A stretch of DNA of 64,000 nucleotides from an uncultured Pelagibacteraceae bacterium (lineage in GTDB: Bacteria; Pseudomonadota; Alphaproteobacteria; Pelagibacterales; Pelagibacteraceae). A program made the translations under genes and the position numbers. Of the stretch, positions 490-62,440 are shown in pieces. Within the stretch, counting starts at the first letter, position 1; each line of letters begins with the position of its first letter. The notes under the pieces are model-generated. The model worked only from the letters and a program-made list of their open reading frames with translations, did not search any database and had not been told where the DNA came from. The stretch lies in contig CACFGT010000005.1 in assembly GCA_902565935.1 (NCBI GenBank), forward strand, positions 1 through 64,000, given 5' to 3'.

Positions 490-1728
490 ATGGAAGCTTT
501 CACTTATAAAGGTATTTCAGACGGAAAATATGTAGAAGGTGATATTGAAGCTTTAAATCTCGATGAAGCATCACATAAATTAAAAGAACAAAAAATAATC
601 ATTACTAACTTAGTCAGAACTTCAAAGAAAAAAAAAGATACAAAGGAAAAAAAAGAGAAAAAAGGCTCTTCTTTATTTGGTAAGAAAAAAGCAAAAGTTG
701 AGGATGTATTAATATTTTCAAAACAGTTTGCTACAATGGTAAAGGCTGGATTACCAATTTTGCAGGTTTTGGCGATGTTAAGAGATCAATTAGAAAGTCC
801 AGCAATGAAAGATGTTGTTGAAGACATCAGAAAAAGCTTAGAGGGTGGTGTTACTTTATCTACATGTTTCGGTAAGTATCCAGAACTCTTTGATAACGTT
901 TATATCAACTTAATTAAAGCTGGAGAAGCTAGTGGTAAGCTAGATGTTTTCCTACTTAAAATAGTTGAGTCTCTTGAAAAAAAAGAAGCAATTAAAAAGA
1001 AAATTAAATCAGCTTTAATGTATCCAAGCATCATGTTTTCTGTGGCAATAACAGTTAGTATTTTCATGCTTATAAAAGTTGTTCCAGTATTTGCTAAAAT
1101 GTATGATGGGATGGGGATTGAGCTACCAGCTGCAACAGCAACAATTATGGGTATGAGTGATTTCTTAAGAGGCACTGGTGGATTAGTATTGTTGTTAATT
1201 TTGATAGCAGGTTTTATAACTTTTAAAGTTTTAACAACTAAAAATGAAAAATTTAAATATCTGTGGCACAAGCAAATTTTGAAACTTCCGATCTTTGGAG
1301 ATATGATTTTAAAATCTATGCTAGCAAGAATTTCTTTGATCATGGGAAATTTAAGTGCAGCGGGTGTAAACTTGTTGGAGAGTTTAGAAATTGCAAAATC
1401 AGTTAGTACCAATGTTGTTGTTTTAGAGTCACTAGAAAATGTAAAAAAAGGAGTTTTTTCTGGAGATACATTAACTAAACTTTTTTTAAAAGATAAATTG
1501 TTTCCTCCAACTTTTAGTCAGCTAATATCAGTAGGTGAACAAACAGGTCAATTAGATGAAATGTTTGGATCAGTTGCTAAATATTATGAATCTGAGTTTG
1601 ATACTGTTGTAGAAAACTTATCAAGCTTAATTGAACCAATTATGATTGTCTTTATGGGAGTTATGATTGGTGGACTAATGATAGCGATGTATTCACCAAT
1701 CTTTAACGTTGGTGCACTGATTGGTTAA
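490..1728 (+). CDS. pilC: Type IV pilus inner-membrane platform protein PilC
   Basis: PilC is the polytopic platform protein that couples PilB to pilin polymerisation. The 412 residues fit the family. The N-terminal cytoplasmic part (about 1-70) contains a lysine-rich stretch. Two T2SSF repeats follow, each starting with the typical FSKQFATMVKAG-type or LARISLIMGNLSAAG-type helix, and hydrophobic segments lie near 170-200, 225-250 and 380-405. It follows pilB closely and is probably co-transcribed with it. Its 3' end is convergent with the RsbW-like gene, six bases away, with no obvious hairpin terminator between them. GspF is the alternative name, but the pilin genes nearby support PilC. Confidence 0.93.
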   Translation: MEAFTYKGISDGKYVEGDIEALNLDEASHKLKEQKIIITNLVRTSKKKKDTKEKKEKKGSSLFGKKKAKVEDVLIFSKQFATMVKAGLPILQVLAMLRDQLESPAMKDVVEDIRKSLEGGVTLSTCFGKYPELFDNVYINLIKAGEASGKLDVFLLKIVESLEKKEAIKKKIKSALMYPSIMFSVAITVSIFMLIKVVPVFAKMYDGMGIELPAATATIMGMSDFLRGTGGLVLLLILIAGFITFKVLTTKNEKFKYLWHKQILKLPIFGDMILKSMLARISLIMGNLSAAGVNLLESLEIAKSVSTNVVVLESLENVKKGVFSGDTLTKLFLKDKLFPPTFSQLISVGEQTGQLDEMFGSVAKYYESEFDTVVENLSSLIEPIMIVFMGVMIGGLMIAMYSPIFNVGALIG

Positions 1729-1733
1729 TTGAT

Positions 1734-2165
1734 TTACAGTTGTTTAGTTAAGACTAAATGGTTAATCCAAGGTTTTTTTCCATCTTTAAATTCGACAGCA
1801 TCCATTATTTCTTGAATAAAAAATGTACCTAATCCTCCTGGTTTAACATTATCAATTTCTCTATGCTTAACTTTTTTTGGATCAACAGGTGTACCTCTAT
1901 CATAAAAAGCAATTTGAAGTTTATTATTTTCACAACTTATTTGAACAACCATTAATTCAGTAGGACTTGCAGAATTTTTAAAAGCATGTTTAACAATGTT
2001 TTGTGCAGCCTCAGCTATAGCTAATACCAATTCATCTTTTAGATCTTCTTGAATTTGAAGCTTTTCAAAAACTTCTCTGCAAAAACTTCTAACATCTTTC
2101 AAACTAGAAGAATTTACTAAAAAAGCTTTTTTTTCTATATGATCTTGGTGAGCAGTTTCACTCAT
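1734..2165 (-). CDS. RsbW/SpoIIAB-like anti-sigma (serine kinase) ATPase
   Basis: This is a small GHKL-fold ATPase (HATPase_c_2, 143 aa). In partner-switching systems such a protein phosphorylates a STAS antagonist and otherwise binds a target, often a sigma factor. The N-box (LAIAEAAQNIVKHAF), the G1 box (DRGTPVD) and the G2 box (GGLGTFFIQEIMD) are all present, so the ATP site looks intact. It lies 4 bases downstream of two STAS genes on the same strand, forming a three-gene operon. No sigma factor gene is seen in the window, so its target is unknown. The kinase role is inferred from family and neighbours. Confidence 0.88.
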   Translation of the reverse strand: MSETAHQDHIEKKAFLVNSSSLKDVRSFCREVFEKLQIQEDLKDELVLAIAEAAQNIVKHAFKNSASPTELMVVQISCENNKLQIAFYDRGTPVDPKKVKHREIDNVKPGGLGTFFIQEIMDAVEFKDGKKPWINHLVLTKQL

Positions 2166-2169
2166 GAAT

Positions 2170-2469
2170 TTATTCCAAATTTAATATTTGTTCTAACTTA
2201 GCCATCATAATAACTTTTAGAACTGACTTACTCACATCTTTAATGATTACTTTTGTACCTTTTTCTAAACCTTTTTGATGACTTTCAATTAATACTGAAA
2301 TTCCAGATGAGTCCATGTATTGAACATTACTCAAGTTTAAATGAACTTCCTTTCCAGCATCTATATGAGGGAATATTACCTCTTTAGCTTTCTCAGTAAC
2401 ATCCATATCTATTTCACCATCAAGATGAATGGTTGCTATATTTCCTTCCTCAGTAACTTTGTAACTCAT
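2170..2469 (-). CDS. STAS-domain anti-anti-sigma factor (second of tandem pair)
   Basis: A single STAS domain of 99 residues, like SpoIIAA or RsbV. The conserved phospho-acceptor region MDSSGISVLIES is present, so the protein can be expected to be phosphorylated by the neighbouring RsbW-like kinase and dephosphorylated by a PP2C phosphatase. Its start codon overlaps the end of the upstream STAS gene by 4 bases, which indicates translational coupling. It is a clear paralogue of that gene: the N-terminal half (GEIDMDV, VHLNLS, YMDSSGIS) is near identical while the C-terminal half has diverged. It is probably controlled by one or both SpoIIE-type phosphatases encoded further along. Confidence 0.9.
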   Translation of the reverse strand: MSYKVTEEGNIATIHLDGEIDMDVTEKAKEVIFPHIDAGKEVHLNLSNVQYMDSSGISVLIESHQKGLEKGTKVIIKDVSKSVLKVIMMAKLEQILNLE

Positions 2470-2750
2470 AAAAATTTCCTCGCCATTGCTAAAACTTTTT
2501 CTACAGGTTTACTTACCTCTATTAATTCAAATTTAGTTTTTTTTTGTTCAGCTAGTTTTTTACTTTCAATTAAAACTGAAATTCCAGATGAGTCCATATA
2601 TTCGACTTTGCTTAGATTTAAATGAACCTCATGACCTGCATCTATTAAAGGTAATATAGTATTTCTAGCCTTATCTGAAACCTCCATATCAATTTCGCCA
2701 TTTAGGTGTACTATTCTTTTATTATCTATTTCATCTACTTTGTAAGTCAT
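2466..2750 (-). CDS. STAS-domain anti-anti-sigma factor (first of tandem pair)
   Basis: A 94-residue STAS domain protein, first gene of the STAS-STAS-RsbW operon. It carries the same MDSSGISVLIES phosphorylation segment as its neighbour and the HLNGEIDMEVSDKA strand-helix region typical of the family. It differs from the paralogue mainly after residue 65, where the partner-binding helix lies, so the pair may respond to different phosphatases or bind the kinase with different strength. The divergent 145-bp gap to the pilin gene must hold its promoter. An imperfect inverted repeat CTCAT-N-ATGAG lies at 2765-2775, 15 bases upstream of the start. Confidence 0.9.
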   Translation of the reverse strand: MTYKVDEIDNKRIVHLNGEIDMEVSDKARNTILPLIDAGHEVHLNLSKVEYMDSSGISVLIESKKLAEQKKTKFELIEVSKPVEKVLAMARKFL

Positions 2751-2895: not shown

Positions 2896-3384
2896 ATGAT
2901 GAAAAATAATAAAGGTTTTACACTAATTGAATTGTTAGTTGTTGTTGCAATTATTGGTATTCTTGCTGCTGTTGGTACGGTTGCTTACCAAGGTTATACA
3001 GCTGGTGCTCAAAAAAATGCAGCTAAATCTAACCAAGCTTCTGTAGTTAAGTACATTGCTGCTGAGGATCAGAAATGTAACATTGGAGAGAGTAGTGCAA
3101 TGGGCGGAAATTTAACGTGTGAAGGTAGAACAGCATCTGATGTAATCACTGCTGCTGTTACAGCTCTTGCTGATTTTAAAAATCCATTTTCAAGCTCAAA
3201 TGCTGCTGTGACAAATGGTGGAACAGTAAACACTACTGATGACAAAGGCTACACGAGGTTAAGTTCTAGTGGATCAACTATTACAATAGAAACATGTATC
3301 GAAGATTCAACAGATGATGATACAGATAATGCTTGTGCAGCAGCTGCTGATAGAATTTCTAACGAAGTAGAAGTTGGTAGTTAG
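2896..3384 (+). CDS. pilA: Type IV prepilin (PilA-like), first copy
   Basis: A pilin precursor of 162 residues. The short leader ends in NNKG and is followed by FTLIELLVVVAIIGILAA, the class III signal cut by a prepilin peptidase, with Glu at mature position 5. The first 30 or so mature residues are the assembly helix; the rest is an Ala/Ser/Asp-rich globular head with cysteine pairs that could form a disulphide near the C-terminus (CIEDS to CAAA). A good ribosome-binding site (AGAGGA) precedes the ATG. It lies downstream of pilBC and just ahead of a second prepilin. Whether it is the major pilin cannot be told from sequence. No prepilin peptidase gene is in the window. Confidence 0.92.
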   Translation: MMKNNKGFTLIELLVVVAIIGILAAVGTVAYQGYTAGAQKNAAKSNQASVVKYIAAEDQKCNIGESSAMGGNLTCEGRTASDVITAAVTALADFKNPFSSSNAAVTNGGTVNTTDDKGYTRLSSSGSTITIETCIEDSTDDDTDNACAAAADRISNEVEVGS

Positions 3385-3403: not shown

Positions 3404-3826
3404 ATGATAACTAGGAGCTCTAAAGGTTTCACAATCGTAGAGCTCTTAGTTGTAGTCGCAATAATAGGTATTTTATCTGCCATTGGAGTTGTCAGTTATA
3501 ATGGTTATGTATCAGGTTCAAAAAAAACTGCTGCTGAAAATACTATTCAGCAAATTGCTTTAGCACAAACCGAATATTACTCTAATAACGGAGAGTATTT
3601 TTTAAGTGGTGCTGGTGATACTTGCACAGCTTCAGCTACTACTTCAGAAGATATTGAAGATGAGTTATTTGCAGGTGAGAATACGATTGCAGATGATATC
3701 GACTTTGAAATATGCGTTTTCGGTTCTGGAGCAACTTTTACAATTCGTGGTGAAGACCAAACAGCTGATTCAACATGTGTTATTACACTAGTAAGAAATG
3801 GTGCACCAACAAGAACCGGTTGTTAG
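3404..3826 (+). CDS. Type IV prepilin, second copy
   Basis: A second pilin precursor, 140 residues, 19 bases after the first. It has the cleavage site SKG before FTIVELLVVVAIIGIL, with the Glu5 equivalent present. The helix is nearly the same as in the first pilin but the head is different, with an acidic middle and cysteines near residues 69, 104, 123 and the C-terminus (TGC). A C-terminal disulphide loop is likely, as in many type IVa pilins. It may be a minor pilin or an alternative major subunit. The heads share almost nothing, which fits rapid surface diversification. Confidence 0.9.
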   Translation: MITRSSKGFTIVELLVVVAIIGILSAIGVVSYNGYVSGSKKTAAENTIQQIALAQTEYYSNNGEYFLSGAGDTCTASATTSEDIEDELFAGENTIADDIDFEICVFGSGATFTIRGEDQTADSTCVITLVRNGAPTRTGC

Positions 3827-4204: not shown

Positions 4205-6358
4205 ATGATGCCCCAAGAAGTAGTTGATATACTTACGAGTAATATTGATACTTTGTGGGTTATTGATTGTGCAATTTTAGTTTTCATCATGCAAGCTGGC
4301 TTTATGTGTATGGAAACTGGTTTATCAAGACATAAAAATAGTATCAATGTAGCTCTAAAAAATGCTGCAGATTTTGGTGTCTCAGTAGTTATCTTTTGGA
4401 TTTTTGGTTTTGGCTTAATGTTTGGTACTTCTTATAATGGATTTTTTGGTACCGATCTATTTTTCTTCAAAACAGATAAAGCTGAGTACATGACTTATTT
4501 TGTTTTCCAGGCAATGTTTGTAGCCACAGCAGCTACAATAATTTCTGGTGCGGTTGCAGAAAGAATGAAGTTTAATGGTTATTTAATAATGACAGTTTTA
4601 GCTACTGGAATTATTTATCCAATCGTAGGACACTGGGCATGGTCTTCGAGTTATCTTTCTAAATATGATACTGTGGATCAATTATTAACTGTAACAGGCT
4701 CAATTAAAACCACTGGTTGGCTTTCTGATTTAGGTTTTGTAGATTTTGCAGGTAGCACGATTGTTCATTCTGTTGGAGGATGGATTGCATTAACAGCAGT
4801 TCTAATTTTAGGTCCTAGAATTGGAAAATATTCAGATGCAAATAGAGGTAAATTTACTGGCTCTAGTTTTCCTTTAGCAGTTTTAGGTACATTAATTTTA
4901 TGGTTTGGTTGGTTTGGTTTTAATGGTGGCAGTAATGGTGCAATGGATGAAGTTGTTCCATTAATTTTAATAAATACATTTTTAGCTGCTGCATTTGGTT
5001 TATTAACTGGTTTAAGTATTTCATACTTTAGATTTAAAAAACCTGATCCTTTTTATATTATCCTGGGACCGCTTGCAGGATTAGTTGCAATCACAGCTGG
5101 ATGCAATTCAATGACTTCTGTGACATCTATCTTTGTTGGAATTATTGGAGCAATTATTGCAATTGTTGTAAATGAAATTTTGAACAAGTTTGAAATTGAT
5201 GATGTTGTTGGAGCTGTACCAGTTCATTTAGCTGCTGGTATTTGGGGAACTCTTGCAGTTGGATTTTTTAGTGATCTAAGTATTTTGGATACTGGGCTTG
5301 ATAGATTTTCACAAATTAAAGTTCAATTTTTAGGAGTATTATCAATTGGATTATTCACATTCGTTACTTCATTTTTTATTTTAAGTTTCTTTAATAAATT
5401 TTATCCTTTAAGAGTAAGTCCAGTTCAAGAAGAACTGGGTTTGAATATTGCAGAACATAATGCCGTTTCTATAGAGCATGATTTAATTTCAATTTTAGAT
5501 AAACAATCAGAGTCAGGTGATTTAAAGATAAGAGGTCCCCAAGATCCATTTACTGCAGGCGGAGTTATTGGTCTTTACTATAATAAATTAATGAGCAAAC
5601 TTGAAACTAGTGAAGATGAGAAAAATAAGTGGAGGGAAAGAATTTCAAAAGAAGTAAAACTTGCAGTCAAAGTTCAAGAAAATTTTTTACCTAAAAGAAA
5701 TTTAAAACATTATCCTGTTCATGGAATTAACATTGCGGCAAGAGAGGTATCAGGTGATTTTTTTAGCTTTTACCCTCATAATGATAGTATTTATTTTATA
5801 ATTGCAGATGTTGCTGGAAAAGGAATTCATGCAGGCATGGTGATGGCAAAGGCATCTACATTATTTGAGGTTCTATCTCAGTCAAAAGTAGATCCTGATG
5901 AGATGGTGTTTCATATGAATAATGATTTAAACAACACCAAAACAGGAGGAATGTTCGTTACTTCAATTGTTGGAGAATATAGTTTAATAACAGATGAAAT
6001 TAGATGGGTAAATGCAGGACATCAGCCAGCAGTTGTTAGAGATCATGATGGAAAATATAATCAGATTGAAAGTTTAGCACCACCTTTAGGAGTAATTAAA
6101 CAGAAAGATAAAAGTATTTATAAGATTAATAAAATGAAATTAAATGGTTCAAGATTTTATGCTTTTACTGATGGATTGTCTGAGAGTTTAAATAAAGAGG
6201 GAAAAGAAATTGGTATCGATGGTTCAATCGACATTATTGAGGAAACTTATAATAAAGACACCAACAAACAATTAGACGACATAACGAGATCTGTGATGGA
6301 TACAACAAAAAATCAAAAGTTAACTGATGATTTAACAGTAATAAGTATTGGGAAATAA
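4205..6358 (+). CDS. Ammonium transporter-SpoIIE/PP2C phosphatase fusion (Amt-PP2C sensor)
   Basis: A 717-residue fusion. Residues 1-400 are a complete Amt/Mep/Rh channel with the FVDFAGSTIVH segment (His188) and DDVVGAVPVH segment (His341) that supply the twin-His pore, and the ISGAVAER signature. A linker (about 400-480, including GLNIAEHNA) leads to a SpoIIE-type PP2C domain (about 480-717). Its metal-binding motifs are intact: VSGDFF (Asp518), IADVAGKG (Asp535), FTDGL (Asp656) and LTDDL (Asp708/709). Amt proteins fused to other signalling domains are known as ammonium sensors, so by analogy ammonium passage or binding may control dephosphorylation of the STAS proteins encoded 2 kb upstream. 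Domain calls are secure; the signalling direction is inferred. Confidence 0.93.
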   Translation: MMPQEVVDILTSNIDTLWVIDCAILVFIMQAGFMCMETGLSRHKNSINVALKNAADFGVSVVIFWIFGFGLMFGTSYNGFFGTDLFFFKTDKAEYMTYFVFQAMFVATAATIISGAVAERMKFNGYLIMTVLATGIIYPIVGHWAWSSSYLSKYDTVDQLLTVTGSIKTTGWLSDLGFVDFAGSTIVHSVGGWIALTAVLILGPRIGKYSDANRGKFTGSSFPLAVLGTLILWFGWFGFNGGSNGAMDEVVPLILINTFLAAAFGLLTGLSISYFRFKKPDPFYIILGPLAGLVAITAGCNSMTSVTSIFVGIIGAIIAIVVNEILNKFEIDDVVGAVPVHLAAGIWGTLAVGFFSDLSILDTGLDRFSQIKVQFLGVLSIGLFTFVTSFFILSFFNKFYPLRVSPVQEELGLNIAEHNAVSIEHDLISILDKQSESGDLKIRGPQDPFTAGGVIGLYYNKLMSKLETSEDEKNKWRERISKEVKLAVKVQENFLPKRNLKHYPVHGINIAAREVSGDFFSFYPHNDSIYFIIADVAGKGIHAGMVMAKASTLFEVLSQSKVDPDEMVFHMNNDLNNTKTGGMFVTSIVGEYSLITDEIRWVNAGHQPAVVRDHDGKYNQIESLAPPLGVIKQKDKSIYKINKMKLNGSRFYAFTDGLSESLNKEGKEIGIDGSIDIIEETYNKDTNKQLDDITRSVMDTTKNQKLTDDLTVISIGK

Positions 6359-6418: not shown

Positions 6419-7723
6419 ATGTTTATTAAACTAAACAAACTAAAATTTATTTTTGTCACAATATTCTTGTTTGTGGCAACATCAGTATTTTCTTCGGAAA
6501 AAAATATTACTTACATGCAAATTTTACAAAAGCCAAATGATCTAGATTTGAATTTAAAATACGCTCAACAACAAGGAAAGATGGGTAACTTTAAACAAAC
6601 TATCTCAACACTTGAAAGATTGACAATGCTTTATCCTGATAATGTTGAAATCAAATTATATTTGTTATCTGTTTTAGTACAAGTGGACTCGCCTGAAAAA
6701 GCAAACACTATTATAGAAGACATGAAGCTTAGAAGAGATTTAGCCCCAGAAGATCTTGAAGCTCTATTAGAAATAGAAGAAGAACTAAAAGATAGAGAAC
6801 CTAGTTTATGGACTTTAGCAGCTGATATTTCGTGGGGTGGAATTTACACTGATAATGTTAATAGTGTATCAAGAACAAGATTAAAAGAAGAGTCTGATGA
6901 AGTTGTAGGTGTCAACTCCGCAAAATATGATAGTACAGCAAGTGGAGGAATTGGTTTATCAGCTACAAGACCTATAGGAGAAGAGTCATCTTTTTTAATA
7001 AATTTAGCTCATTCACAATCAGAACAACACCAAGAAGGAGATGATGACTATCAAAGTTATGGTCTTACATTAGCTTTAGACACTGTTTTAGGTGGTTTTA
7101 GTTTAAGTCCTTATTTGATGTTGAGTAAATCAGATTACCAAACTGATGCAGATAGTTTTTCAAAAATGTGGGGTATAGGAGGTTTTATACCTGTTGGTGA
7201 AAGAAATTCTTTTAGTTATGGGTATGCTTTTTCAGATTCTAAAGGGAATAGAAACTCAAGTGATACTACAGCAGACGAAACTAATACGATTGGACATAGT
7301 TTTACTTTAGGTCATGATTTTATATTAACAGAAATAATTTCAACAAGTATTGGTTTGGGATATAGCGACTCTGATGCAATAGTTGATGCAGGAAACGATT
7401 ATGAAACTTACGATGTAAGTTTTGGATTAAATTTTGCTTTCCCGTGGGCTTATATTGCAGTTGGAAATGCAATAAGTTTTAATGATTATAAAAGAGAAGA
7501 TACATCTGTGAGTTCTACTAAACTTCGATCAGATTACACCAATACTTTTGATATCATGTTAACAAAGGCTATAGGAGATATTTTTCCAACAATAGATCCA
7601 AATAGAAGTTTATTTATAAATTTATCATATGAAAAACTTATTTCTGAAGCGAATATGCTTAATTATGATTATATAGCCGATTCTTTTTCACTAAGTTTTT
7701 CTAAGTCTTTAAGACTAAATTAA
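6419..7723 (+). CDS. TPR-containing outer-membrane beta-barrel protein
   Basis: An exported protein of 434 residues. A signal peptide (about 1-25) is followed by a helical TPR-like region (about 35-125, with NLKYAQQQGKMGNFKQTISTLERL). The rest alternates polar and hydrophobic residues, with many Gly, Ser and aromatic residues, as expected for an outer-membrane barrel. The layout resembles the TPR-plus-barrel family that includes Slam-type lipoprotein translocators and DUF560, but no specific function is claimed. It sits between the Amt-PP2C sensor and a FecR-domain protein, a neighbourhood typical of envelope sensing clusters. Confidence 0.68.
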   Translation: MFIKLNKLKFIFVTIFLFVATSVFSSEKNITYMQILQKPNDLDLNLKYAQQQGKMGNFKQTISTLERLTMLYPDNVEIKLYLLSVLVQVDSPEKANTIIEDMKLRRDLAPEDLEALLEIEEELKDREPSLWTLAADISWGGIYTDNVNSVSRTRLKEESDEVVGVNSAKYDSTASGGIGLSATRPIGEESSFLINLAHSQSEQHQEGDDDYQSYGLTLALDTVLGGFSLSPYLMLSKSDYQTDADSFSKMWGIGGFIPVGERNSFSYGYAFSDSKGNRNSSDTTADETNTIGHSFTLGHDFILTEIISTSIGLGYSDSDAIVDAGNDYETYDVSFGLNFAFPWAYIAVGNAISFNDYKREDTSVSSTKLRSDYTNTFDIMLTKAIGDIFPTIDPNRSLFINLSYEKLISEANMLNYDYIADSFSLSFSKSLRLN

Positions 7724-7837
7724 TCAAAATTTATTAACAATTTTTCTCCATTTTTCCTTATAAAGACGCTTTTTTTAGCGCTCATTTTGAGTTTTTAAAT
7801 GTTTATTTTTTTCAATATTTTGATACGTTTTCAGAAA

Positions 7838-9094
7838 ATGAAAAAGTTATTGTCATTAATTTTTGGTTTAACATTCTTAATGAGTGTGAGTTCGCACTCT
7901 GAGGAAAAGCTAACAATTGAAAAACAGTTAGTTGGAATTGTTGGAGCAATTTCTGGAACAGTTAAAACCGAAACAAGAGAATTAAAAGCTGGAGACAAAA
8001 TTTATTTAAACGAAACAATTGTCGCTGGAGCTGGTTCAGGCACACAAATTTTACTTTTAGATCAATCTACATTTACTATTGGTGAAGATTCAGAAGTTGT
8101 AATGGACACATTTATTTTTGATCCAGCAACTAATGATGGAAAAATTGTTGCAAGTGTAAAACAAGGAAGTTTAAAAGTTATCTCAGGTCTTATTAGTAAA
8201 AAAAATCCTGACAGTTTAACAGTAGAAGTTCCAGAAGGAACACTGGGTTCAAGAGGAACTGAGTTTCAAACAATTGTCTCAAAAGGAAAAACAGATACTT
8301 TACTAATCGGTCCTGGAAAAAATAATACACTAGGAATGAGACCTGGTGCAGTTCTTGTTGGAAATAAACTTGGTTCAACTTTACTAGATAATCCATACAG
8401 CATGACTTCTATGACTAAAGGCAAAGCACCTGGTCAAGCAAAAAAGATAACAAAAAATCAGTTAAAGAAATTTAATAAAAAAATGAAAGCTTTAAGAGTT
8501 GCTAAACTTTCTCCAAGTGAAACAAAAACTGAGAGAAAAGCTTTAAAAAAACAATTAAAGAAAGAATTAAAATCTTTAGGTTTTGAAAAAGAAGAAATTA
8601 AATCAATCATCAAAGAAAATATTCAAAAAGATAAAGAGAAGAAAGTTGCAATCAAAAAAGACAGAGCTGAGAAAAAGAAAAAAGCTAAAGCTGAAAAGAA
8701 AAAAGCTAAAAAGAAAAAAGGTAAAGCTGAAAAGAAAAAAGGTAAAAAGAAAAAAGCTAAAGCTGAAAAGAAAAAAGGTAAAAAGAAAAAAGTTGTAAAG
8801 AAAAAAGAAACTAAAAAGAAAGCAACTAAGAAAAAAGCAACTAAAAAGAAAGCAACTAAGAAAAAAGCTACTAAAAAGAAAGCAGTGAAGAAAAAGCCAG
8901 CTAAGAAGAAAAAAGCTGTGAAGAAAAAACCTGCTAAGAAAAAGAAAAAAGCTGTTAAGAAAAAACCTAAGAAAAAGAAAAAAGTAGTTAAGAAAAAACC
9001 TAAAAAGAAAGTGGCTAAGAAGAAGAGAGTAGTTAAAAAGAAAAAAGCTGCTAAGAAAAGAAAAGCTAAGAAGAAGAGAAGAAAGAAGAAGTAG
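7838..9094 (+). CDS. Secreted FecR-domain protein with a long lysine-rich tail
   Basis: FecR-domain proteins sense or organise the periplasm and often sit beside CHASE2 receptors. I prefer the ATG at 7838 over the track start at 7799, because MKKLLSLIFGLTFLMSVSS is a normal signal peptide while the extension would bury it. The FecR fold runs over about residues 35-170 (IVGAISGTVKTET, LNETIVAGAGSGTQILLLDQ, EGTLGSRGTEF). From about residue 225 the protein becomes basic, and the last 150 residues or so are almost pure Lys with Ala, Val, Thr and Pro, resembling histone H1-like tails. Such a polycation on an exported protein is odd; it might bind surface polysaccharide, LPS or DNA. That role is speculation. 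Confidence 0.87.
   Translation: MKKLLSLIFGLTFLMSVSSHSEEKLTIEKQLVGIVGAISGTVKTETRELKAGDKIYLNETIVAGAGSGTQILLLDQSTFTIGEDSEVVMDTFIFDPATNDGKIVASVKQGSLKVISGLISKKNPDSLTVEVPEGTLGSRGTEFQTIVSKGKTDTLLIGPGKNNTLGMRPGAVLVGNKLGSTLLDNPYSMTSMTKGKAPGQAKKITKNQLKKFNKKMKALRVAKLSPSETKTERKALKKQLKKELKSLGFEKEEIKSIIKENIQKDKEKKVAIKKDRAEKKKKAKAEKKKAKKKKGKAEKKKGKKKKAKAEKKKGKKKKVVKKKETKKKATKKKATKKKATKKKATKKKAVKKKPAKKKKAVKKKPAKKKKKAVKKKPKKKKKVVKKKPKKKVAKKKRVVKKKKAAKKRKAKKKRRKKK
8640..9091 (+). repeat. Imperfect lysine-codon repeat tract (purine-rich)
   Basis: Within the FecR gene the coding strand is a mosaic of short repeats such as AAAAAGAAAAAAGCT and AAGAAAGCAACT, almost all A and G. It encodes KKKAK, KKKAT, KKKAV and KKKPAK units. 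Such tracts expand and shrink by slippage, so length variation between strains is expected. Several ORF-track lines here are only shadows of it. Confidence 0.85.
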
Positions 9095-9148: not shown

Positions 9149-11203
9149 GTGAAAGCTTTTTTGCAAAAATATACAAATTATTTAATTTTTTTGTTGATCC
9201 TATTATTGTTAATTACTTTAAAAATTATTAATCCACCTTTTATCAAGTCAGTCTCGTATTTAAGTTTTGATTTATATCAAAAAATATTTGCAGAAAAAAA
9301 AGATAGTGAAGTTGTTATTATTGATATTGATGAAAAAAGTTTAGGTAAATTTGGACAGTTTCCATGGAACAGAAATGTTTTTGCAAAAATACTTGATCAA
9401 CTTAATACTTCCAATCCAAAGGCAATAGGTTTCGATATTTTTTTCACTGAAAAGGATAAACAATCTCCTGAGGAAATTATTAAATCATATAATTTGATAC
9501 CATCTGATGTAGCAGATCTTCAAAAATTAAAAGGACCTGATGATGTTTTTTCAGAAAAATTGAAAGAGTTAAAAACTGTAATTGCAGTTTTAGGAAGTAA
9601 TGTGCCCTCACATTCAAATTATGATCGTAAAGCAAAAGCAAGATTTTTGTCAAAAGGTGGGGATCCAAAACAATTTACATACTCTTATCCTTTTTCAATT
9701 GGGTCTCTTGAGAAATTAGAGAAGAATGTTACAGGATTAGGTTCAATATCTTTTTTAGATCAATTAGATGGGATCATAAGATCTTTACCATTAATTGTTC
9801 AATTTAATAAAAAAATATATCCAACTATGGGATTAGAAATGGTTCGTGTTGGATCTAAACAAAAAAATATTTATGTAGAACTCAATGAAGTTGGAATTAA
9901 AAGAATAAGCGCAAGACCATATAAAGTAGACTCAGATCCTAATGGAATTATTTGGATTAAATATAAACGGTCAAATAAAAATCAGTACATCTCTGCAGGT
10001 GATGTTTATGATGGAAAATTTCAATCTGATTTTTTTCAAGATAAGTATGTTTTAATTGGTGCTTCAGCACAAGGACTTTTCGATCTTGTTAAAACTCCAT
10101 TAGGAGTGACTATACCTGGAGTAGAAGTTCATGCTAATGTTATAGAAAATATTTTAGATCAGTCTTATTTAATAAGAAATCCGAACACTTATATTTTTGA
10201 ATTATTATTTTCTATAATTGTAGCCTTAATTACATTTATTTTGTCTCAAAAAATTAAACCAAAATATAGCTTGTCTATCTTTTTTGGAAATATTTTAGCA
10301 ATCATAATTATTGGATTTTCTATTTATAAATTTAGATCTGAATTAGTTGATATGAGTTATCCAATATTTATTGTCACTTTAACATTTTTAACAGGGCTTT
10401 ATTTTAGATTTATAGAAGAAAACAAAATTGCTTTAGCTAATTTACAAAAAGAAGCAAAATTATTAAAAGAAAGAGAATTAGCAGCTGGGGTTCAAAAAAG
10501 TTTGTTCCCAGATATCTCAAAATTTGAGAACTTTATTTTTGCAAAAAATGTACCTGCCAGAGATGTTTCAGGAGATTATTTTGATGTAGTGAGAGCTACA
10601 CCTGAAGAATATTTTTTCACTTTAGCCGATGTGTCTGGAAAAGGTGTCAAAGCAGGTATGTATATGGCAAAAGCATCCTCAATATTTAGAACGCTTACTA
10701 ATTTAAAATTTCCATTAGAAAAAGTTGTTTTTGGCGTTAATAATGAATTGGTTGAAGCTAAATTTAAAGGAATGTTTGTTACAGCTGTATTTGGAAAATT
10801 AAATATAAAAACTGGTGAATTAGTTTTTATAAATGCTGGTCATGAGAGCATTTTGACTTTTGATCAAAATAAAAACTATGAATACATTAAATCAGATATG
10901 CCACCCATTGGAATTGTAAAATATTTTACAGAGTCGATGGTAAAATCAAATACTATAAATTTAAAAGATAAAACTTTTGTAGTTTATACTGACGGTGTGA
11001 CAGAAGGTTATTTAAAGAATGGTGAAGAATTAGGTGCAGAAGGAGTACAAAAAATCATAGACGGTATGTCAGAAGTAACGCCAAAAACTATTGTAGAGTC
11101 TATTGAGAAGGAACTAAATTGGGGGGCCGAAAAGTTAAGAGATGATATTACTTGTATGGCAATAAATATCGCTAACACAGATCTGATAAAAAAGGCGAAA
11201 TAA
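9149..11203 (+). CDS. CHASE2 sensor-SpoIIE/PP2C phosphatase
   Basis: A membrane-bound phosphatase of 684 residues starting at GTG. One N-terminal helix (about 9-29) is followed by an extracytoplasmic CHASE2 domain (about 35-335, with VVIIDIDEKSL and FPWNR typical of the family). Three closely spaced transmembrane helices follow (about 345-420), then a short coil and a PP2C/SpoIIE domain (about 450-675). The metal-site motifs are intact: VSGDYFD, LADVSGKG, VYTDGV and RDDIT. CHASE2 is more often attached to cyclases or kinases. With the Amt-PP2C fusion this gives two sensors able to act on the two STAS proteins. The signal sensed is unknown. Confidence 0.92.
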   Translation: MKAFLQKYTNYLIFLLILLLLITLKIINPPFIKSVSYLSFDLYQKIFAEKKDSEVVIIDIDEKSLGKFGQFPWNRNVFAKILDQLNTSNPKAIGFDIFFTEKDKQSPEEIIKSYNLIPSDVADLQKLKGPDDVFSEKLKELKTVIAVLGSNVPSHSNYDRKAKARFLSKGGDPKQFTYSYPFSIGSLEKLEKNVTGLGSISFLDQLDGIIRSLPLIVQFNKKIYPTMGLEMVRVGSKQKNIYVELNEVGIKRISARPYKVDSDPNGIIWIKYKRSNKNQYISAGDVYDGKFQSDFFQDKYVLIGASAQGLFDLVKTPLGVTIPGVEVHANVIENILDQSYLIRNPNTYIFELLFSIIVALITFILSQKIKPKYSLSIFFGNILAIIIIGFSIYKFRSELVDMSYPIFIVTLTFLTGLYFRFIEENKIALANLQKEAKLLKERELAAGVQKSLFPDISKFENFIFAKNVPARDVSGDYFDVVRATPEEYFFTLADVSGKGVKAGMYMAKASSIFRTLTNLKFPLEKVVFGVNNELVEAKFKGMFVTAVFGKLNIKTGELVFINAGHESILTFDQNKNYEYIKSDMPPIGIVKYFTESMVKSNTINLKDKTFVVYTDGVTEGYLKNGEELGAEGVQKIIDGMSEVTPKTIVESIEKELNWGAEKLRDDITCMAINIANTDLIKKAK

Positions 11204-14206: not shown

Positions 14207-14266
14207 TCAATAATGCATTTTTTTTAGGATCTGATATATTAGAATCTGATAGTCCTTCTTAGCCAT
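14207..14266 (-). CDS. Possible 19-codon leader ORF ahead of the DUF2805 gene
   Basis: A very short ORF beginning MAKKDYQIL, with a good Shine-Dalgarno (GGGAG, six bases before ATG), ends 24 bases before the DUF2805 start. Its ribosome site and start codon lie in the loop of an inverted repeat, so folding could affect translation. It could equally be chance or a gene remnant. Confidence 0.3.
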   Translation of the reverse strand: MAKKDYQILIYQILKKMHY

Positions 14267-14303
14267 CTTTAGCTCCCGGTTTTTAAGGACTATCTTTTTT
14301 TTT
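14248..14303 (+). promoter_or_regulatory. Stem-loop with T-run in the leader of the lysE-family gene
   Basis: GATAGTCCTT (14248-14257) and AAGGACTATC (14285-14294) form a perfect 10-bp stem with a 27-base loop. A nine-T run follows directly and the ATG of the exporter comes next. A TATATT at 14235-14240 would start a transcript close to the first arm, so this looks like an attenuator or leader element rather than the terminator of an upstream gene. A direct repeat ATCTGATA (14229 and 14244) overlaps it. I cannot match it to a riboswitch class. Confidence 0.5.
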
Positions 14304-14918
14304 ATGCTCCCCTTAGATTTTTTCCTTTTTTTGCAGATTATAATCTTTTTATTTATCACACCCGGAACACCTCGAGTTGTTATTGTATCTTACTCAATGA
14401 ATTATGGTGTTAAAAATTGTATTTGGACTGCTTTAGGAGACATTACTGCAAATTTATTTCAAGCAACTTTAGTAATCTTTGTTATTGGAACTTTTTTGTC
14501 AGATAATCCTGGATTTTTAAATTTATTTAAATGGTTAGGAGTGTTGTACTTAGTTTATTTAGCTTATGACGTGTACAAATCTTCACCTAAAGATGTAAAT
14601 TCAAAAAAAATTACAACAAAAAGTATTTTTTCTTTTTTTAAAGATGGTTTCTTAGTTGCAGGTACAAGTCCAAAGGCATGGTTGTTTTTTCCGTTAATAT
14701 TTCCTCAATTTATTGACTTTAATGCCAACTATGTTGTGCAATTTTTTATTTTGATTACAACGTATGTTGTTTTAGATTTTATTTCTTTAATTGGTTATGC
14801 ATTACTCGCACAAAAACTAATAACTTGGATAAAAGCAAATCCTAAAACAATTAATACAATCTCAGCGAGTGTTTTAGTAATAATAGCTTTAATTATTATT
14901 GTAACACAACAATATTAA
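14304..14918 (+). CDS. LysE/RhtB-family amino acid exporter
   Basis: An inner-membrane protein of 204 residues with about six hydrophobic segments, fitting the LysE/RhtB exporters for amino acids and related metabolites. The N-terminal segment FITPGTPRVVIVSYSMNYG matches the family's TPGPN-type motif (here TPGTP), and a second conserved part lies at GFLVAGTSPKAWLFFPLIFPQF. The substrate is not deducible. Its start codon directly follows a stem-loop with a T-run, so expression may be controlled by attenuation. A second LysE-type gene occurs at 42.5 kb. Confidence 0.88.
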   Translation: MLPLDFFLFLQIIIFLFITPGTPRVVIVSYSMNYGVKNCIWTALGDITANLFQATLVIFVIGTFLSDNPGFLNLFKWLGVLYLVYLAYDVYKSSPKDVNSKKITTKSIFSFFKDGFLVAGTSPKAWLFFPLIFPQFIDFNANYVVQFFILITTYVVLDFISLIGYALLAQKLITWIKANPKTINTISASVLVIIALIIIVTQQY

Positions 14919-53970: not shown

Positions 53971-55371
53971 TTACCTGGTTGCAGACGAAACAGCTCTTTC
54001 GTCTTTTTTAGCAGTTTCCATTATTTCATAGTCTAATCCAGCTATCTCTACTTCACGTGGGATTCTTAATTTACCCATTCCATGAAGTACTTTAGCTATG
54101 ACATAACCTGGTATTAGTCCAAGAACAACAAACATTATGATTGCACCCAAGAACATTCCTAATGGATTTATAGCTGCATAAGTTGTTCCATCCCACATAG
54201 CTCCAACACTGTATCCAGATGATGGATAACCATTTAAGACAAAACCACAAATAACTAAACCAATAAATCCTGCATAACCATGAACTGCTACTGCACCAAC
54301 TGCATCATCAATTTTGAACTTACGTTCAACCCAATAATGTAGTTTGTACGATAGTACAACTCCGATCATACCTATGATCATAGATTGAATTGGATGATAT
54401 AAATCATTTCCAGCTGAAGCACATATGATACCCGCTAGTCCACTAGAGTATGTCCAGAATGGATCACCTTTTGCAATCCAGTATCCAGCTAATAATCCTC
54501 CTGATAGTGACATCAAGAAGTTAAAAGTTATACCACTAAGTGTTGTAGGAGTTACATAAATGTTTGTAGCCGTCCAATAAGATATACCTTCCATGCCATA
54601 CTCTGGGCCAAGATCAAATATTGGAATGTTACATGCCGCATAAAATCCCCAGAAACCAGTATAAATTAGAAATAATCCAATTGTTACAAGCCAAGGATTT
54701 CTAGGTCCAATATTTCTTGGTTCACCACTTGATGAGAATTTTCCAATTCTTGGACCTAAAACCATTAGTACACCTAAAGCAAATCCACCCGCTATCGCAT
54801 GGATTACTCCTGATGCATAAGCATCATGGTATCCTAAAATTTTAAGCATCCAACCATCAAAATGCCATCCCCAAGCAGCATCAATTGTCCAGAAAACCGA
54901 GCCGATTGCTATTGCTAAAATTCCAAAAGCAAAAGTAGTTATTCTTTCAATTATTGCTCCCGAAACGATAGATGCAGCAGTCCAAGAAAATAATAAAAAA
55001 GCAGCCCAGAAAACACCATTAATGTGATCTCCAAGGTTAACTGCCATTATACTACTTGTTGCCACCTGAAATTTTGCACTAAACAAACTATCATCGGTGA
55101 TTAAAGCTGTACTTTCGTTCATTATTGAAGGTGCTAATCCCGGTCCTGTTGGGAAAGCCCAGTAAATCCACCAACCAAATAAAAACCAAGTCACTGTTAC
55201 CAGTGGTATCAGCATTGTATTTTTCATTAGAGTGTGTTGGTGATGTTTGTATCGAGAAGCTCCAACTTCATACATACAGAAACCGACGTGAATTAAAAAC
55301 ATCAGAACCACTGTTACCCAGTAGTAAAACTCTGTAAATATGGTTGTTAGAGCCGCTAACTGATCAGTCAT
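53971..55371 (-). CDS. amt: Ammonium transporter (Amt family)
   Basis: A 466-residue Amt/Mep/Rh channel for ammonium uptake. The twin-His positions occur in HDAYASGVIHAIAGGFALG and DDAVGAVAVHGYAGFIGLV, and the family motif AAFLLFSWTAASIVSGAIIERI is present. The rest has eleven or so helices. It is only distantly related to the Amt half of the Amt-PP2C fusion at 4.2 kb and lacks any signalling extension. It has its own upstream gap (125 bases) and probably its own promoter, next to glutamate-synthase-like genes. Confidence 0.95.
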   Translation of the reverse strand: MTDQLAALTTIFTEFYYWVTVVLMFLIHVGFCMYEVGASRYKHHQHTLMKNTMLIPLVTVTWFLFGWWIYWAFPTGPGLAPSIMNESTALITDDSLFSAKFQVATSSIMAVNLGDHINGVFWAAFLLFSWTAASIVSGAIIERITTFAFGILAIAIGSVFWTIDAAWGWHFDGWMLKILGYHDAYASGVIHAIAGGFALGVLMVLGPRIGKFSSSGEPRNIGPRNPWLVTIGLFLIYTGFWGFYAACNIPIFDLGPEYGMEGISYWTATNIYVTPTTLSGITFNFLMSLSGGLLAGYWIAKGDPFWTYSSGLAGIICASAGNDLYHPIQSMIIGMIGVVLSYKLHYWVERKFKIDDAVGAVAVHGYAGFIGLVICGFVLNGYPSSGYSVGAMWDGTTYAAINPLGMFLGAIIMFVVLGLIPGYVIAKVLHGMGKLRIPREVEIAGLDYEIMETAKKDERAVSSATR

Positions 55372-59145: not shown

Positions 59146-60615
59146 TTATGGTAAACAATCTAGATAAGTATCCAGATCCCATTGGGTTGTAGCTCCTAAA
59201 AATCTTTCCCACTCATCATTTTTGTACCAATGAAAAACTTTGTACATTTCATCAGGCATAGCTGATTTAATAACTTCATCTTCTGACAATCTTTCCAAAG
59301 CTTCACCTAAGCTTAAAGGAAGTTTCTTAACATCTTTTCCAGCTTTTTGAGCTTCATAAATGTTTCTAGACTCTGGATCAGCAGGTTTCATTTTATTACT
59401 TATTCCATGATCACAAGCTTTTAATAAAGCAGCACCCAACAAATAAGGATTGTGCATAGAGTCAACTGATCTGTACTCAAATCTTCCTGGCGCAGAAACT
59501 CTTAGCCCACAAGTTCTATTTTGGTATCCCCAATCAGCATATACAGGCGCCCAAAAACCTTGGTCCCATAGTCTTCGATAAGAATTTACTGTTGATGAAC
59601 CTAATGCAGTTAAAGCTGGAAGATGTTCCATGATACCAGCAATTGATTGTAAACCTATCTTACCAGGTAATTGCATATCTTTAGTATCTGGCATAAAAGT
59701 ATTTGTTCCACCTTCAACATAACCAAAAACTTCTTCAACTGCCGGTAAAGATTTGTGTCCAAGTTTATTTGTTTTAACTTTTCCACCCTTCCACAAAGAC
59801 ATATTAGTATGACAACCACTTGCAGAAACTCCCATAAAAGGTTTTGTCATAAAGCACGCAATTAGATTATGTTCTCTTGCAACTTGTGCACAAATTTGTC
59901 TATAAGTTGATAATCTATCTGCATTTCTAAGTACGTTATCATAAGTCCAATTTAATTCTAATTGACCTGGGGCATCTTCATGATCTCCTTGAATCATGTC
60001 TAGACCCATCGCTTTTGCATATTCTATAACTTTCATGAATACAGGTCTTAAAGACTCAAATTGATCTATGTGGTAGCAAAATGGTTTTGAAAATCCCTTA
60101 CCTGTTGGAGTGCCGTCCTCGTTTCTTGTAAGCCACATCATTTCAGGCTCAGTACCAACTCTTAATTCAAGACCATGTTTTTTTTCAAATTCTTCCATAA
60201 AAATTCTTAAATTTCCTCTACAATCAGAAGTCAAATGTCCACCTGGGTTGTTTCTTTCCTCTCGGTTTCTAAAACATGTTACGAAAACTCTTCCAACTCT
60301 TTTATCCCAAGGCAATTGACAGAAAGTTTCGGGGTCAGGGATGCCAACTAATTCCATTGCTTCTGGTCCGTAGCCAATATAATTATTATGACGATCCAAA
60401 AATAAATTAGCTGTTGCTCCATATACTAATTGAAACCCTTTTTCAGCTGTTCTTTCCCAATGATCAGCAGGTATACCTTTACCAACAACTCTTCCTGTTA
60501 CAGAAATAAATTGATAGTAAATATAAGTTATTCCTAACTCATTAATTTTTTCTCTTACTTTTTTTACTTGTTTATCTCTACCTGGTCGGTTTACGTGTTT
60601 TTCTAAATCCGTCAT
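59146..60615 (-). CDS. glnT: Type III glutamine synthetase GlnT
   Basis: A 489-residue glutamine-synthetase family ligase. TYIYYQFISVTGRVVGKGIPADHWERTAEKG, the metal/glutamate motif QGDHEDAPGQLELNW, SASGCHTNMSLW and APGRFEYRS identify the GlnT type. It heads the glnT-glxB-glxC-glxD order known from rhizobia, which argues for a shared pathway of gamma-glutamyl amide formation and re-use. The leader contains a TATAAT and an inverted repeat, so it likely has its own promoter. Confidence 0.92.
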   Translation of the reverse strand: MTDLEKHVNRPGRDKQVKKVREKINELGITYIYYQFISVTGRVVGKGIPADHWERTAEKGFQLVYGATANLFLDRHNNYIGYGPEAMELVGIPDPETFCQLPWDKRVGRVFVTCFRNREERNNPGGHLTSDCRGNLRIFMEEFEKKHGLELRVGTEPEMMWLTRNEDGTPTGKGFSKPFCYHIDQFESLRPVFMKVIEYAKAMGLDMIQGDHEDAPGQLELNWTYDNVLRNADRLSTYRQICAQVAREHNLIACFMTKPFMGVSASGCHTNMSLWKGGKVKTNKLGHKSLPAVEEVFGYVEGGTNTFMPDTKDMQLPGKIGLQSIAGIMEHLPALTALGSSTVNSYRRLWDQGFWAPVYADWGYQNRTCGLRVSAPGRFEYRSVDSMHNPYLLGAALLKACDHGISNKMKPADPESRNIYEAQKAGKDVKKLPLSLGEALERLSEDEVIKSAMPDEMYKVFHWYKNDEWERFLGATTQWDLDTYLDCLP

Positions 60616-60629
60616 TTTCCCCTCAATGA

Positions 60630-60658
60630 ATTATATTTTTTCAAGCGTAGCTGAAAAA
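60630..60658 (-). promoter_or_regulatory. Candidate glnT promoter with overlapping inverted repeat
   Basis: On the minus strand TATAAT (60630-60635) lies 15 bases before the glnT start. TTTTTCA-N8-TGAAAAA (60637-60658) lies immediately upstream, covering the spacer and -35 area where a dimeric regulator could bind. No good -35 box is seen, which would fit activator-dependent control. Low GC makes this uncertain. Confidence 0.4.
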
Positions 60659-60682
60659 TTTATTAGTGTCTAGGCTAAGAGT

Positions 60683-62029
60683 TTAGCTCCAAGGAAACGG
60701 ACTGTTCGAAGTAGGGTGAAGTTCTCCCTTCTCGTAACGGTTGAATCTAAATGGTTTTAATAAATCACTTTCAGTACCAAGAATTTCTTTAGCAACAAGT
60801 TCTCCAACACCAATCATTTTATATCCGTGATTAGCATCAGCAATCATATATACATTTTCAAAAAACCTATCGAAGATTGGAAAAGAGTCTGGCGTCATGC
60901 ATCCAAGTCCTCCCGAAGGACCTTTTCTATATAAATCAGATTTTCCTTCAAATCTTTTTTGGCAATGTGCTAATGCTGAACACCACATTTCACTAAATGC
61001 ATCTGTTGTTTGATACTCTGTAGACTCTATTCCGTATGGATCAACATTCACTTTATCAAAATGTTTTTTAACAATGTAAGGAGATGTTCCACCTTGAACA
61101 CCAAGACCTTCAATATCTGGTTTATAATAAATTCCCCAAATTTTATCTGTAATTAATTTTTTTGTCTTATCAGAGTATAAAGGAGCTGTTGAGTCAACAT
61201 GAACCACAGGGGGTTGTTTTCCATCATTTGTTTTTAAAAAATCTGGCTCAACTCCAATCACACCCTCTTGTAACATCCAGTATGTCCACATATCAGTGAC
61301 ATGCATTTTTCCATCTTTGCCTTTTACATTTGCAGTTTTAGGTAATTCTAACATGTTCCAGAAATCTCTTGCCCATGGACCAGCACCAATGACCACTTGC
61401 TCACAATCAATTGTTCCTTTATCAGTTTCTACTCCTGTTACCGCTTTACTATTACTTCCTCTTTTAAAGCCTGTAACTTTTACACCTTTCATAACTTGAA
61501 CACCATTTGAAGTAGATTTCTTTTCAAGAGCTTTTATTGAGTCTTTGTTAAAAGCATATCCACCTTTTTTTTCATGAAGAATAGAAGTAATTCCTTGAGC
61601 TTGCCAATCATCAAAAATACCTTTCATATAATTCATGCAATCTTTTTCACCTTCTATAAAAGTAGATTCATATCCTATTGCTTTTTGTTGTTTATAAATA
61701 CTTGCTACATCCTCATGCATTACTTCTGGTGAGATCTGTAAATAACCAACTGGATTGTACTTAAATGCTTTTGGATCACTTTCCCATACAGAAACTGAGT
61801 GTGCCATCAATTCTCTCATTGCTGGTTGGAAGTAATTATTTCTTACTACTCCACAAGCTATTCCACTCGCACCTGCTGCAGTATCTTTCTTTTCTAAAAC
61901 TATTATTTCACCTGGATTTTTATAAGTTTCTGATAATTTCCATGCAGTACTTAAACCGTGAATTCCTCCACCAATTATAACTACTTTTGCTTTTGTCGGT
62001 AATGACATACCAACATCTTTATTTTTCAT
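60683..62029 (-). CDS. FAD-dependent oxidoreductase, sarcosine oxidase beta-subunit-like
   Basis: A 448-residue DAO-family flavoprotein. The dinucleotide motif VVIIGGGIHGLSTAWKLSE is at the N-terminus, and the conserved GAGPWARDF and C-terminal YMIADANHGYKMIGVGELVAKEIL close the FAD site. It resembles SoxB-type and related dehydrogenases that demethylate sarcosine, dimethylglycine or N-methylglutamate. The neighbouring GcvT-like fusion could take the methylene group onto folate. The precise substrate is not known. It lies 60 bases downstream of a small regulator and follows an A/T palindrome. Confidence 0.87.
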   Translation of the reverse strand: MKNKDVGMSLPTKAKVVIIGGGIHGLSTAWKLSETYKNPGEIIVLEKKDTAAGASGIACGVVRNNYFQPAMRELMAHSVSVWESDPKAFKYNPVGYLQISPEVMHEDVASIYKQQKAIGYESTFIEGEKDCMNYMKGIFDDWQAQGITSILHEKKGGYAFNKDSIKALEKKSTSNGVQVMKGVKVTGFKRGSNSKAVTGVETDKGTIDCEQVVIGAGPWARDFWNMLELPKTANVKGKDGKMHVTDMWTYWMLQEGVIGVEPDFLKTNDGKQPPVVHVDSTAPLYSDKTKKLITDKIWGIYYKPDIEGLGVQGGTSPYIVKKHFDKVNVDPYGIESTEYQTTDAFSEMWCSALAHCQKRFEGKSDLYRKGPSGGLGCMTPDSFPIFDRFFENVYMIADANHGYKMIGVGELVAKEILGTESDLLKPFRFNRYEKGELHPTSNSPFPWS

Positions 62030-62046
62030 GCGACTTAAATATATAG

Positions 62047-62066
62047 TTTTTTATATATATAAAAAA
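62047..62066. promoter_or_regulatory. 20-bp A/T palindrome upstream of the flavoprotein gene
   Basis: TTTTTTATATATATAAAAAA is a perfect palindrome 18 bases before the flavoprotein start. It could be a weak terminator for the regulator gene upstream, part of a promoter, or simply low-complexity DNA. Confidence 0.3.
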
Positions 62067-62089
62067 TATAAGTAAAAATTATAGAACTG

Positions 62090-62440
62090 TTAAAAGCTTA
62101 GATTTTTTAAAGTTTCTAAATAACTGTTAAATTCACTTATGAAACTTTCACTCGGTTTTATGTGTTTTTTTCTTTGATCATTTGATGTTTTTTCAAGATA
62201 GAAGAAACCTTTTTCACAAGCTTCATTAATCATTAGTGCAGATTTTGGGCGCGAAGTTTTAAACAATTTTGTTTTAAGTTCCTCAACTGTAAGATTTTCT
62301 TTATATTTGTAAGCATGCATTACCAGTAACATCATATGATAATGTGAAGGTGATTTTCTAAAAAAATAATTACTCGAAGTATGAGATAGTTTCATCTGAT
62401 CTTCCCAAAATTCTAGTAAATCTTTTGTAGTTTTAGGCAT
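62090..62440 (-). CDS. Small winged-helix (MarR-like) regulator
   Basis: A 116-residue protein with a predicted winged helix: LTVEELKTKLFKTSRPKSALMINEACEKGFFYLEKTSNDQRKKHIKP reads as recognition helix followed by a basic wing, as in MarR/Rrf2-like domains. It starts at the last base of the DUF1989-GcvT gene, so it is made with it. It is the only DNA-binding candidate in region 4 and may control the amine genes. It is shorter than a full MarR (about 140 aa). Confidence 0.7.
   Translation of the reverse strand: MPKTTKDLLEFWEDQMKLSHTSSNYFFRKSPSHYHMMLLVMHAYKYKENLTVEELKTKLFKTSRPKSALMINEACEKGFFYLEKTSNDQRKKHIKPSESFISEFNSYLETLKNLSF

Follow-up and report, generated by a model that had tools for sequence, protein, structure and literature searches.

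What does a SAR11 bacterium do with an ammonium transporter whose polypeptide runs on, in frame, into a protein phosphatase? The question is raised by an open reading frame of an uncultured Pelagibacteraceae bacterium (assembly GCA_902565935.1, contig CACFGT010000005.1), from which a stretch of 64,000 nucleotides (positions 1 to 64,000, called the window below) was analyzed. The gene, its domains and its neighbors are as follows (coordinates in the window, strand, description and basis of the assignment).

24-476: end of pilB
490..1728, + strand: type IV pilus inner-membrane gene, pilC-like (sequence, synteny)
1734..2165, - strand: RsbW-like serine kinase (HATPase_c_2) with N-box EAAQN (Pfam, homologs)
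2170..2469, - strand: STAS protein 1, RsbV-like, with DSSG serine (Pfam, alignment with RsbV)
2466..2750, - strand: STAS protein 2, RsbV-like, with DSSG serine (Pfam)
2896-3384 and 3404-3826: pilins
4205..6358, + strand: Amt-PP2C fusion gene, 717 aa (single unbroken ORF, Pfam, orthologs)
4256..5464, + strand: Amt domain, residues 18-420, with Q30, E37, N53, D56, T111, S114 and pore histidines H188/H341 (Pfam, alignment)
5465..5782, + strand: conserved Amt tail and helical linker, residues ~421-526, with motif GDL.IRGPQDPFTAGGVIGLYYN, then helix 470-494
5783..6349, + strand: SpoIIE/PP2C phosphatase domain, with D518 (SGDF), D535, D656 and D709 (Pfam, fold)
9149..11203, + strand: CHASE2-PP2C (Pfam)

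Pfam places Ammonium_transp at residues 18-420 of the fusion protein (E 2.8e-112) and SpoIIE (PF07228) at residues 527-715 (E 7.4e-35), the first PP2C motif (D518, SGDF) starting slightly upstream of the latter envelope. The Phe gate (F105/F239), the W146/S243 pair and the twin histidines (H188/H341) are all intact in the primary copy, and the PP2C metal aspartates (D518, D535, D656 and D708/D709) are invariant in 81 primary sequences and five paralogs. Reading frame, Pfam and residues hence agree with an earlier note on this DNA, which had described a full Amt channel with both pore histidines joined in frame to a PP2C domain with all of its metal-binding aspartates.

Many of the source genomes were obtained by single-cell amplification, in which chimeras are possible, and the earlier note had named a frameshift or assembly join at about 5400-5640 as a finding that would refute it; we looked for one and found no positive evidence. 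The boundary is open in relatives, 77 of the 80 fusion copies fetched are full length (the remaining three are shortened by contig ends alone), and the fusion is intact in 101 genomes that include closed chromosomes. Strong purifying selection spans the join, with median pN/pS values (80 comparisons) of 0.04 at the Amt/PP2C junction, 0.07 in Amt and 0.14 in PP2C, such that constraint peaks at the junction. Because relatives are intact, the junction is so constrained and closed genomes also carry the fusion, we exclude a frameshift or assembly join, and the probability that the gene is a chimera, a frameshifted frame or a decaying relic is practically nil.

When one genome per species was scanned (84,980 species), the best 80 matches to the fusion all belonged to Pelagibacteraceae (SAR11). 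The fusion is found in 101 of 399 Pelagibacter genomes and in 20 of the 58 that are near-complete (at least 90%). It lies at differing chromosomal positions between strains and is missing from others (six loci compared). Given these differing loci and its presence in about one third of near-complete genomes, we regard it as an accessory sensor and not a core one. A second fusion gene, ~50% identical to the first, is present in 29 of the 101 carriers; it encodes ~745 aa with a longer N-terminus (L145:17323-19560, L148:8723-10960, L149:10027-12258), and alanine replaces the S1-site serine (S243) in five of five copies checked. From these residues, the second paralog may cover a different ammonium range or sense a different ligand. 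A viral or phage origin of the fusion was considered and rejected, as a scan of viral contigs yielded no relative.

The Amt half resembles solved sensors more closely than solved transporters: its E-values are 2.7e-116 to 8qj3 (the closest solved Amt sequence) and 1.2e-86 to Ks-Amt5 (6eu6), compared with 1.8e-42 to AfAmt1 and about 4e-28 to Escherichia coli AmtB. We take 8qj3, along with 8qj4 and 8qpf (all titled "Ammonium transporter"), to be probably Shewanella Sd-Amt1, an Amt of the diguanylate-cyclase type. The ammonium ligands of Ks-Amt5 (Q24, E31, N47, D50, T51, T109 and T112; PMC5764959) align to Q30, E37, N53, D56, F57, T111 and S114 of the fusion, which are invariant in the sequences checked; the Q, E, N, D and T109 positions are identical, whereas T112 is exchanged for S and T51 for F. 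All seven positions are identical between the fusion and 8qj3, and the Q, E, N, D, T, S set is kept in Amt-HK and Amt-GGDEF proteins, whereas the two other Amts of this genome have Ala/His in place of Q30 and Leu in place of D56. Amt proteins of other alphaproteobacteria and proteobacteria also share with the fusion the tail and linker motif GDF..R.PV.PFTE.G.IA..YN, and the outputs borne on that same Amt-linker unit elsewhere are HisKA-HATPase or PAS-GGDEF-EAL. Since this ligand set and linker are common to Amt-HK and Amt-GGDEF proteins and differ in the two other Amts of the genome, the Amt half is, as judged from sequence, of the sensor kind, and it groups with Ks-Amt5, Amt-HK and Amt-GGDEF proteins, the class of Amt-effector ammonium sensors that the earlier note had called established. 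Plant AMT1 transporters carry some of the Ks-Amt5-type ammonium-site residues, and site residues alone are no proof of sensing. The length of the loop 5 segment was tried as a sensor marker and dropped, as the values (21 residues in the fusion, 20-22 in other fusions, 22 and 25 in the other Amts of the genome) do not discriminate. The window also encodes a divergent third Amt-family protein (53971-55371), 26% identical in the Amt core and carrying Cys in place of the S1 serine.

Whether such a sensor would still transport is a separate matter. The pore-blocking residues F27, Y30 and F34 of Ks-Amt5 correspond to F33, M36 and L40 in the fusion, the same bulky residue being present at only one of the three positions; because two are unmatched, the pore of the fusion may still conduct. 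At these positions, relatives of the Amt-HK and Amt-GGDEF types carry F, L and L, from which it follows that the bulky block marks Ks-Amt5 and not the group. Together with the intact Phe gate, W/S site and twin histidines of the primary copy, these residues lend some weight to a transceptor, in which the Amt half would go on importing ammonium and the PP2C domain would report flux through the channel instead of occupancy of a blocked pore. However, the same genome encodes two separate Amt proteins as well, and Ks-Amt5, the characterized relative of this architecture, lost transport (PMC5764959); we therefore think a transceptor unlikely, if worth keeping in view, and prefer a sensor that is gated by ammonium binding.

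The full-length AlphaFold2 model of the fusion (mean pLDDT 59, shallow alignment) is unusable for the Amt part, and the PP2C part was folded alone; in the resulting model (residues 470-717, pLDDT 87.8), a helix precedes the PP2C core, and the best PDB matches are Pseudomonas aeruginosa RssB, SiaA (SiaA-PP2C), the RsbU domain of Rv1364c and SpoIIE. Sequence and model thus identify the output half as a SpoIIE/RsbU-type PP2C, with predicted phosphatase activity. In RsbU, the signal reaches the PP2C domain by way of such a helical linker, and linkers of this helical kind have been proposed to let sensors swap between HK, GGDEF and PP2C outputs (PMC12143880). An Amt-PP2C protein would be expected under this proposal; with it, phosphatases join kinases and cyclases as a third output of the sensor-Amt module. 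Among sampled genomes of Pseudomonadota (385 at class level and 399 at phylum level, partly overlapping; matches passing 1e-10 or 1e-12), no SpoIIE output on an Amt was found outside Pelagibacter.

The candidate targets of this phosphatase lie just upstream of the fusion on the opposite strand, where two STAS genes are accompanied by the RsbW-like gene. The Glu and Asn of the RsbW N-box are invariant in 60 homologs, as are the DSSG serines of the STAS proteins in 86. A search across genomes for co-occurrence of the Amt-SpoIIE architecture with STAS and RsbW genes, which the earlier note had proposed, returned a strong association: RsbW is present in 92 of 101 genomes with the fusion versus 38 of 298 without it (Fisher 4e-48, a value that ignores shared ancestry) and in 20 of 20 near-complete fusion genomes, and the nine fusion genomes without detected RsbW are each at most 87% complete. 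Some SpoIIE protein is likewise found in 128 of the 130 RsbW genomes. The fusion and RsbW lie within 10 kb of one another in 71 genomes, 12-30 kb apart in 7 and on different contigs in 14, some of which may merely reflect contig breaks; because of these last two groups, linkage is not the whole explanation of the co-occurrence.

The only other SpoIIE protein of the genome, CHASE2-PP2C, is probably a second input to the same RsbW/STAS switch. Two genes precede it: one (6419-7723) encodes a TPR-like protein, and the other (7799-9094) a FecR protein with a very long lysine-rich C-terminal tail that is unusual for FecR. These three genes stay with RsbW/STAS even in L050, which lacks the Amt fusion, and are arranged in another order in L051. 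A search for Sigma70_r2 returned only two proteins in the genome, with open frames of 615 and 300 aa that are by size RpoD- and RpoH-like, and hence no alternative sigma factor; a classical SigB output is therefore unavailable and we do not file the switch as a SigB system. An RNA element search found none near the fusion gene. Further along the window, an rhtB RNA element (RF01814, 79.3 bits) at 14230-14312 overlaps the start of an ORF at 14304.

The fusion can be traced to a cultured strain. A closed genome with two tandem fusions (60069-62219 and 62323-64560) is that of HTCC1062: its gene order agrees, and it has ORFs that end at 1164238 and begin at 1164385, matching the HTCC1062 intergenic region printed as 1164239-1164384 (PMC2704228). 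The two fusions are SAR11_0049 and SAR11_0050, and both score for Amt and SpoIIE; they lie in hypervariable region 1, their products are filed as "ammonium transporter" (11 TM helices), and one of the two genes was lost in strain HTCC1002 (PMC2217521). The STAS proteins of this strain are SAR11_0055 and SAR11_0056 and its RsbW is SAR11_0057; the nearer fusion is 2.5 kb from rsbW. We found four SpoIIE/PP2C proteins in HTCC1062 (three loci), namely SAR11_0049, SAR11_0050, a GAF-SpoIIE protein (77115-78461) and the product of an ORF at 1164826-1165692 that matches SAR11_1218. These run contrary to the 2025 phosphoproteome of this strain (PMC13198564), according to which there is no Ser/Thr kinase besides RsbW and none of the annotated phosphatases is predicted to have protein substrates.

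The same phosphoproteome reports 1014 Ser/Thr/Tyr phosphosites, including sites in RpoD, RpoH and NtrX, with no phosphatase recognized (PMC13198564), and so offers other substrates on which a PP2C domain could act. The Amt half might then be mainly a transporter or anchor, and the PP2C domain constitutive or otherwise regulated, with no link to ammonium sensing. This is difficult to reconcile with sensor-type residues, with a linker under tighter constraint (pN/pS 0.04) than the two domains it joins, with the kinase and GGDEF outputs that the same Amt-linker unit bears elsewhere and with the tight co-occurrence of the fusion with RsbW/STAS, and we consider it distinctly improbable.

We hypothesize, with somewhat more conviction than doubt, that Amt-PP2C is a phosphatase gated by ammonium and that it feeds a partner switch of the RsbV/RsbW kind. 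Ammonium would enter the Amt vestibule and fill an intramembrane site of the Ks-Amt5 type, and the resulting change would travel along the conserved tail and the helical linker until it reached the PP2C domain, which would take the phosphate off the DSSG serine in either or both of the RsbV-like STAS proteins. STAS without its phosphate would then capture the RsbW-like kinase and free whatever RsbW holds, with CHASE2-PP2C (GAF-PP2C in other strains) as a parallel input; as its output, the switch might set how much RpoD or RpoH is available, or act on the type IV pilus system encoded beside it. Phosphosites have been reported on both of these sigma factors in HTCC1062 (PMC13198564). Gating by ammonium (its sign included), STAS as the substrate and the output of the switch are what we infer here. 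The earlier note had suggested that the protein could report ammonium status straight to a STAS partner with no phosphorelay; our results support this in part, through the architecture and its conservation, its place among known Amt-effector sensors and its co-occurrence with RsbW/STAS. A point against this mechanism is that Amt proteins are trimers whereas RsbU-type PP2C proteins are thought to act as dimers (PMC12143880). A bolder extension, which we put forward tentatively and think rather doubtful, is that ammonium outside the cell would drive protein dephosphorylation directly, with Amt-PP2C and its sister phosphatases opposing the single Ser/Thr kinase RsbW, setting RpoD/RpoH availability and substituting for PII/NtrBC in carrier strains.

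We know of no ammonium sensor described for SAR11, and a search of 11 marine Pelagibacter genomes (the source genome and ten others) found no PII gene. Smith et al. 2013, as cited in PMC5069961, call the nitrogen response of SAR11 PII-independent in their title, and a paper on freshwater SAR11 (LD12) mentions a "PII nitrogen response system" yet cites the PII-independent paper (PMC6018831). The fusion bears on two SAR11 questions, namely how nitrogen is sensed without PII and whether protein phosphatases are missing, as has been reported. Through it, external ammonium could reach the one Ser/Thr kinase switch known in these bacteria, the most abundant in the ocean. Its distribution is patchy (20 of the 58 near-complete genomes), which rules it out as the universal nitrogen sensor of SAR11.

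Each half of the fusion has counterparts among known systems. Ks-Amt5, the Amt-histidine kinase of Candidatus Kuenenia stuttgartiensis (PDB 6eu6, PMC5764959), shares an N-terminal Amt, intact pore motifs, an extended tail, a cytoplasmic output and most of the ammonium ligands (identical at five positions, with Ser for T112 and Phe for T51); however, its output is a kinase and not a PP2C, and it belongs to a different phylum with different partners. Amt-diguanylate cyclase proteins (two loci) have the same tail and YN-containing linker with GGDEF/EAL in place of a phosphatase. The AmtB-GlnK (PII) pair likewise places an Amt in the reporting of nitrogen status, yet the PII partner is absent from the 11 genomes searched. 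On the output side, the RsbU, SpoIIE, RssB and SiaA PP2Cs have in common with the fusion PF07228, the metal aspartates, the fold, a preceding helical linker and RsbV-/RsbW-like neighbors, and differ in that the input of the fusion is an Amt domain and its genome has no alternative sigma factor. The Rsb switch of Chlamydia is similar to that of SAR11 in having one RsbW, two RsbV-like proteins, several PP2C proteins and few sigma factors, with different sensor domains; there, the target of RsbW is the primary sigma factor (PMC4552016), a precedent for such a switch without an alternative sigma factor. We found no characterized Amt-PP2C protein in the literature searched, and the earlier note, too, had known of none. 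Amt sensors are known and PP2C sensors are known, and the gene itself was already listed as SAR11_0049/0050; it is the combination of the two for which we found no description in that literature.
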